Source of the DNA: Actinomyces bowdenii
GTDB lineage: Bacteria; Actinomycetota; Actinomycetes; Actinomycetales; Actinomycetaceae
Direction: 5' to 3'
DNA: 50,318 bases
NCBI RefSeq assembly: GCF_017592395.1
Contig: NZ_JAGFOU010000025.1
Coordinates: 1-50,318 of the forward strand
The notes beneath the pieces are model-generated. The model did no database searches. It was not told the origin of the DNA and saw nothing but the letters and a program-made list of their open reading frames with translations. A program made the translations under genes and the position numbers. Shown here one piece after another: positions 7,614-28,022 of the stretch. Position 1 is the first letter of the stretch. Each line of letters starts with the position of its first letter.

Positions 7614-7810
7614 TGCACATCTTCAAGAACCGACCGAGTGGTTGATCCGCATGATTCCAAGGTTCTGCCAGTCTTCGGCGGGCTGGAGGGGGCTGAAGAT
7701 GTGCAGCGGCGGCCCTGCTGCACATCTTCAGCCTGGCCCAGGATCGGGGCCTGCTGGAATCGTGCGGAAAAGCCGGTGCCGGTAGGCGGGTCACTGCCTG
7801 AAGATGTGCA
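7614..7810 (+). repeat. 197-bp composite structured repeat, copy 1
   Basis: Two 92-bp units in opposite orientation separated by 13 bp: 7614-7705 and 7719-7810. Each is bounded by TGCACATCTTCA on its left and TGAAGATGTGCA on its right. The left unit carries the core GATCCGCATGATTCC (7644-7658). The right unit carries, on the complementary strand, CTTTTCCGCACGATTCC (complement near 7757-7773). The inner ends of the units form a perfect 17-bp hairpin with a 9-base loop (7691-7733). The element lies between the divergent menG and geranylgeranyl reductase genes. A second copy, inverted and of identical length, is at 27635-27831. It contains no gene. Role unknown; candidates are a REP/BIME-like or MITE-like element or a structured regulatory RNA. 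Confidence 0.85.
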
Positions 7811-27634: not shown

Positions 27635-27831
27635 TGCACATCTTCGGGCCCGGATCTGCCTGCCGGCCCTGACTTTTCCGCAGGATTCTGTCAGCCATGG
27701 AGGTCGGGCGGGGTTGAAGATGTGCAGCGGGGGAGGTGCTGCACATCTTCAGGCCCGGCGGGCCGGCCCCGGGACGGGAGAACCGCGGAATCATGCGGAT
27801 CAACCGGGTGGTCGATTGTTGAAGATGTGCA
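27635..27831 (-). repeat. 197-bp composite structured repeat, copy 2 (inverted)
   Basis: Same architecture and same length as 7614-7810 but in the opposite orientation. Units are 27635-27726 and 27740-27831, both exactly 92 bp, separated by 13 bp. Ends are TGCACATCTTC(A) and TGAAGATGTGCA. The left unit has the core CTTTTCCGCAGGATTCTG (27673-27690). The right unit has GGAATCATGCGGATC (27788-27802), the complement of the left-unit core of copy 1. The inner ends form a 14-bp perfect hairpin with a 9-base loop (27715-27751). It begins 17 bp after the polyprenyl synthase stop, so it may help end the nuo operon transcript. Most of the sequence between the conserved motifs differs from copy 1. Confidence 0.85.
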
Positions 27832-27959: not shown

Positions 27960-28022
27960 ATGCGAGTCCGGGGTGCAGAATGCGATGGCACCGCAGTCGC
28001 ATTCTGCACCCCGGACTCGCAT
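27960..28022. terminator. Perfect 26-bp hairpin between convergent genes
   Basis: Perfect inverted repeat: arms 27960-27985 and 27997-28022, loop TGGCACCGCAG. The left arm contains AATGCGA twice. It lies between the 3' ends of the plus-strand nuo operon and the minus-strand AztD-like gene, so a bidirectional terminator is plausible although no T-run follows. Degraded relatives of one arm occur at 7844-7860 and about 8033-8060, so it may instead be a member of a dispersed hairpin family. Confidence 0.6.

Follow-up and report, generated by a model that had tools for sequence, protein, structure and literature searches.

Introduction

REPINs are inverted pairs scattered through intergenic DNA, with conserved ends and a variable spacer, and their families are tied to specific enzyme genes, the RAYTs (PMC3116915). 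In P. fluorescens SBW25 their most common spacings are 71 or 110 bp (PMC3116915). At promoters, antitoxins of the AbiEi / Rv2827c type bind to inverted repeats arranged in sets (PMC7319586). The Pfam family MTES_1575 is a Vsr-type REase (PMC3710099).

The window analysed here, a stretch of 50,318 nucleotides from Actinomyces bowdenii, contains two composites that resemble the REPIN-RAYT arrangement: they are intergenic inverted doublets at set spacing, tied to an enzyme gene. The enzyme itself is different, a predicted AbiEi-Vsr protein instead of a Y1 HUH transposase, and RAYT (Y1_Tnp, PF01797) was found in 0 of the 49 genus genomes, against 5 of the 14 named controls, E. coli among them. The composites also depart from REPINs in their four-arm form with a 13-bp linker, in lengths that step by the helical turn and in interiors with no predicted RNA hairpin. 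The REP/BIME-like character proposed in the first-pass annotation thus holds as an analogy of organisation and fails for the REP partner enzyme. Compared with AbiEi / Rv2827c, whose predicted fold is shared by the N-terminal two thirds of the protein, there are more than 100 dispersed sites instead of one operator, a nuclease fold is added at the C-terminus, and in the window's own genome (G000) the two scanned neighbours of the gene, LMWPc and DUF885, do not include an AbiEii toxin. The C-terminal predicted fold and conserved residues are those of Vsr / EDxHD nucleases (I-Bth0305I) and MTES_1575, but here they are joined to an AbiEi fold and tied to dispersed composites. Titles and abstract openings from an open-licence library gave no description of such a nuclease/site system, and the papers matched by the arm 11-mer look unrelated by title. 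We read these elements as what would be a new nuclease/dispersed-site system, REPIN-RAYT-like in organisation and built on an unrelated enzyme.

Architecture of the composites

The features of the two composites in the window are as follows.

7614..7705, + strand: composite I unit 1, type A, 92 bp, arms 7614-7624 and 7695-7705
7644..7658, + strand: type-A core GATCCGCATGATTCC in composite I, read in the sequence and from the family core profile
7706..7718, no strand: composite I linker, 13 bp, between units 1 and 2
7719..7810, + strand: composite I unit 2, type B, 92 bp, arms 7719-7729 and 7800-7810
27635..27726, - strand: composite II unit 1, type B, 92 bp, inverted relative to composite I
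27727..27739, no strand: composite II linker, 13 bp
27740..27831, - strand: composite II unit 2, type A, 92 bp, inverted

The layout described in the first-pass annotation, two 197-bp composites (7614-7810 and 27635-27831) made of four 92-bp units with 13-bp linkers, was confirmed, and both of the core types it had claimed are present. Allowing one mismatch, we counted 8 copies of the 12-base arm TGAAGATGTGCA in the window, where shuffled sequence would give 0.08; the arm at 27635 departs from it at base 12 only. One 92-bp unit of composite II is 82% like a unit elsewhere in G000 (C14:9016).

From the fetched stretches we assembled 119 clusters, 53 from G000, 35 from G024, 29 from G037 and 2 from G018. 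Units are paired in 41/53 clusters of G000 and 26/29 of G037, and single units are commoner in G024 (22/35). The linker measures 13 bp in 83 of 86 cases and 12 or 14 bp in the remainder, four other values having been put aside as chaining artefacts. A arms are preceded by C-rich sequence, and B arms are followed by G-rich sequence. Units of the 81-bp class share a conserved core (around CGACTTTTCCGCATGATCCCGTC), which is weaker in the 92-bp class and barely visible in G037.

Copy number across genomes

The search for further copies in G000 (3.1 Mb, 54 contigs) revealed a large family of 113 units with exact arms by pattern searches. The 89-93 bp range accounts for 81 of them, the 81-bp length for 30 and the 93-122 bp range for 8; six 93-bp units fall in both the first and the last count, and the total counts each once. 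Every length of 62-91 and 93-122 bp was scanned, all 30 units from the 62-91 bp scan measure 81 bp, and reversed-pattern controls for the three counts gave 0.

Among 99 genomes, own included, exact units of 89-93 bp are confined to G000, G024 (27) and G037 (16). At 92 bp with up to three mismatches, 213 genomes of the family yielded 82 units in G000, 38 in G024, 22 in G037 and 2 in G018, the last of which also has exact units at 102 and 114 bp. Such pattern counts are blind to copies decayed beyond three mismatches, and the fetched loci were selected by exact arms. G011 and G039 (A. oricola) have relics of about 81 bp; since the reversed control of the 81-bp search at three mismatches matched once each in G036 and G031, the single G011 match rests on a BLAST match. 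A search of genome_contigs for GAAGAT arms at 91-93 bp, from which own or near records may be left out, gave 0. A phage origin was rejected: GAAGAT-arm units of lengths 81-104 number 0 in IMG/VR, and the 5 protein matches are weak.

Unit lengths and folding

Unit lengths are quantised into classes of 81-82, 92-93, 102-104, 113-115, 125, 135 and 156 bp, with two units between classes (86 and 97 bp). For 201 units of 70-170 bp with at most two arm mismatches, the best length period is 10.85 bp (R 0.957) and the class slope 10.82 bp. Most of these loci came from set-length searches, and the all-length scans (62-91 and 93-122 bp) give identical classes. Steps of this size point to duplex DNA with both arms of a unit bound by protein on the same face, and not to an RNA hairpin; the phasing suggests that both arms are bound together. 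For lac loops, fitted in-vivo loop repeats are reported to be 10.95-11.6 bp (PMC1762422).

A transcribed hairpin acting as terminator, RNA processing site or small RNA would account for the complementary arms, for the many sites close to the 3' end of a gene and for the RNA folding z of whole units, which is -4.1. That z-score stems from the arms, as the interiors alone fold no better than shuffles (z -0.45; 30 units, all from G000). The arms are invariant instead of compensated, the lengths step by the duplex turn, and Rfam gave 0 matches at gathering score in the window. We consider a transcribed hairpin very improbable: an RNA element was rejected on the Rfam result and the shuffle-like folding of the interiors, and with it the small structured RNA or terminator suggested earlier, the length phasing fitting duplex DNA only.

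The probable partner gene

The P0001 gene (307 residues, C1:276306-277229) is enclosed by two composites in G000 (C1:276028-277382), and it runs at its 3' end into the A arm of the unit that follows. The earlier remark that no coding sequence is associated with the elements is correct inside the window and incorrect genome-wide. The P0001 family has a predicted AbiEi-antitoxin fold, which makes up the N-terminal two thirds, joined to a Vsr/homing-type nuclease fold. The C-terminal part has the predicted Vsr / EDxHD fold with conserved E..D..ExD..H active-site residues. P0001 itself matches MTES_1575 below the curated cut-off, and 16 of 18 members match at E <=0.01 (best 3.8e-7).

Any P0001 match is present in 40/49 genus genomes, and relatives occur in many Actinobacteria among the best 80 of 165 that were kept. 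The homologue in G037 is 70% identical and likewise lies between composites. Composites or palindromes stand on both sides of the gene in G000, G037, G021 and G025. G024 has no P0001 match at E 0.001 and one 81-bp unit at that locus; with its many sites, it indicates that sites can outlive the protein.

The interiors of the 81-bp units C1:276028 and C1:277197 (L042), which enclose the nuclease gene, are 98% identical. No other pair at separate loci looks recent when fetched units of the same length are compared; the likeness is as if the gene cassette had duplicated or carried its unit.

Conservation, context and mobility

Arms are exact in 105 of the 115 G000 units found by pattern search with up to three mismatches (75/82 and 30/33). 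Among the fetched G000 units the figure is 93/98, which is inflated because the loci were picked by exact arms. The interiors diverge: in G000 their median best identity to a unit at another locus is 0.67, and of 95 units only the two on either side of the nuclease gene reach at least 0.85. Exact arms are found in 39/58 units of G024 (26/38 at 92 bp, 13/20 at 81 bp) and in 15/22 of the 92-bp class in G037. G037 has kept the gene and its arms are no better kept than those of gene-less G024, so arm decay is not cleanly tied to gene loss.

Alignment to the fetched G024 clusters (35) pairs 20 of the 53 G000 clusters with a counterpart, the match extending to the element on one side or both. G024 has a single unit and G000 two in 9 of these 20 pairs, and several of the nine differ by exactly one unit plus linker, which fits recombination between direct arm repeats, or gain. 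In some G000-G037 pairs, composites at matching positions have unit lengths that differ by whole turns. Invariant arms in the absence of recent copying suggest that the sites are used where they stand. The earlier proposal of selection on structure or on a bound protein, as opposed to recent duplication, is supported as regards the bound protein, by these comparisons and by lengths that follow the helical repeat; an RNA structure is not supported.

By a simple codon-usage gene caller, clusters are nearly all intergenic. Of the G000 clusters, 13 + 13 are flanked by co-directional genes, 16 by divergent genes and 4 by convergent ones; another 4 overlap with a predicted gene, in one case with the end of the partner gene itself, and 3 sit close to a contig end. 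G000 uses fewer convergent gaps than the baseline (4/46 classified sites against 86/502 gaps), with no such shortage in G037 (5/28). Twenty proteins encoded by flanking genes, one of them the partner gene itself, showed no functional grouping.

The elements could also be a gene-less family, REPIN- or MITE-like, that is still mobile and spread by the nuclease. The arms would then be conserved because movement needs them and nothing else, and the lengths phased because a short element must have its two ends on the same face. The gene enclosed on both sides in four genomes, the wide variation of copy number between species and the presence/absence differences at loci such as C26:9760 all fit such mobility. 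So does the sequence before the elements, as the 13 bp preceding a composite are a little more like the linker than permuted ones are (5.08 against 4.78, sd 0.16; 74 composites). A target-site duplication is unclear, however: 3 of the 74 two-unit composites match at 5 bp and none at 3, 4 or 6-12 bp, and for 81 composites including triplets the 3 matches at 5 bp compare with 0.14 expected. Recent copies between loci are absent except for the pair beside the gene, and old, positionally conserved copies keep their arms. Neither the window locus nor two loci of L106 showed a clean empty site, and a third L106 locus appears to differ by one unit. We regard present mobility as possible but doubtful. 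The possible role as a MITE, listed in the first-pass annotation, is not supported: the elements are short and intergenic with inverted TG..CA ends, as MITEs are, but they lack a clear target-site duplication, have one pair of recent identical copies and came with no identified transposase.

At the position of composite I of the window, G024 has about 10.6 kb of other DNA (C1:738176-748771), beside which lies what looks by eye like a decayed core and arm.

Lineage-specific arms

In the genomes compared, arm types differ by lineage, and gene-flanking and dispersed sites are alike where copies are many. It was predicted beforehand that each homologue would have its own composites. Twenty homologues score at least 188 bits; 19 have fetched flanks, G037:2349475 being left out. 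A palindrome lies 3' of the gene in 18 of these 19, and in 0/11 homologues scoring <=153 bits. The exception, L203, has units and no palindrome by rule. The palindrome has the form B-N13/14-A, mostly about 75-90 bp beyond the matched region, and its arms vary by lineage (for example TCCAGTGTGCA, TCCCATGTGCA, TCCCGTGTGCG, TCCTGCGTGCG and ATGAATGTGCA). Arms, read by eye from the homologue flanks, correlate with the protein (Mantel r 0.565, 0/5000), a correlation also expected from simple linkage.

Among the 49 genus genomes, the TCC-type arm pattern matches 46 units in G041 (A. israelii), 36 in G040 (A. massiliensis), 7 in G015 and 6 in G022 (A. dentalis). Counts are low in G012 (A. ruminis, 3), G038 (A. 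ruminicola, 3), G014 (A. glycerinitolerans, 1) and G045 (1). The other 41 genomes, including G000, G024 and G037, gave 0, as did the controls; the pattern does not cover the arms of G005, G030, G033, G039 and G020. Among the units listed, those of A. israelii are mostly 104 bp long with a 14-bp linker in most pairs, and the dispersed arms of A. israelii and A. massiliensis are of their own gene's type. The few-copy genomes can have arms one or two bases off those of the gene (G038, G045, one arm of a G012 unit). G018 has GAAGAT-arm units, yet the palindrome beside its close homologue is of the TCCCAT kind, and G039 has a GAAGAT-type relic, yet an ATGAAT palindrome. The gene and a palindrome are present with 0 units by the TCC-type pattern in G018, G021, G025, G031 and G047 (A. 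succiniciruminis), and the best homologue in G015, with its 7 units, is without a palindrome.

In 80 loci of distant relatives, a palindrome lies 3' of the gene in L233-L237 and L240 and is not at that place in L238, L239 and L241; the other distant loci gave scattered matches, and 11/80 shuffled loci matched too. Short inverted repeats near 6370 in L268, L271, L300 and L303, about 2.5 kb 3' of distant Arthrobacter-type homologues, perhaps belong to a shared neighbouring gene and not to composites.

These comparisons also bear on whether the composites are sites of an unrelated protein, a nucleoid or domain organiser or a global regulator, with the nuclease gene merely among them. The functionally mixed flanking genes, the G000 shortage of convergent gaps, which G037 does not share, and the sites retained by gene-less G024 would suit such a protein. 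It is quite unlikely in view of the similarly placed 3' palindromes of the close homologues, against none in the lower-scoring ones, their lineage-specific arms and the match between dispersed and gene-flanking arms in G041 and G040.

Proposed function

We estimate at about 0.6 the probability that the composites are four-arm chromosomal sites (A-B-13-A-B) for the lineage-specific AbiEi-Vsr protein. This reading builds on their architecture, copy number, helical quantisation, conserved arms against diverged interiors and linkage to the gene, all seen in the genomes compared, and the pairing of site and protein is likely. Each arm (about 13 bp) would be bound by one protomer through its winged helix, and the two inverted arms of a unit, on one helix face, would be bridged so that the DNA between them, with its weakly conserved core, forms a small loop. 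At the close B-13-A pair two protomers would stand head to head, and nicking or cutting, if allowed, would take place there. The family probably arose as gene plus composite, followed by a REPIN-like spread of gene-less composites. The old copies of G000 would now be kept by selection, which implies that the sites do something in place. The protein may act at them in controlled cutting, sequestration or looping, and we rank its control or sequestration, or protein-dependent intergenic loops, above present-day transposition.

The composites might further serve as a DNA-based antitoxin or licence, more than 100 four-arm loops holding a harmful AbiEi-Vsr nuclease in a non-cutting state, with nuclease and arms repeatedly re-tuned in the genus. 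Such a role would explain the invariant arms and helical phase of old copies, and we consider it unlikely.

If the four-arm reading is right, repeat families with a cognate domesticated enzyme extend beyond REP/RAYT, and an unrelated nuclease acting on duplex DNA has come to a comparable layout across the genome. The steps of about 10.8 bp between unit lengths would record loop geometry as it occurs in nature, and the arms, differing by lineage, would supply protein-site pairs as ready candidates from which specificity could be read. AbiEi-like genes of a class with relatives in many Actinobacteria would also gain a testable role.

Neighbouring features

Three G000 contigs start 134-148 bp before a unit (C19:143, C21:134 and C24:148; L051, L053 and L058), and the assembly may break near these loci. 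The window also has another dispersed palindromic repeat, about 62 bp long, at 27960-28022, which is 129 bp from composite II. Five more copies, 77-88% identical, were seen in the fetched loci (L106 27-88; L036, L114, L064), and the repeat occurs at 13 places in G024.
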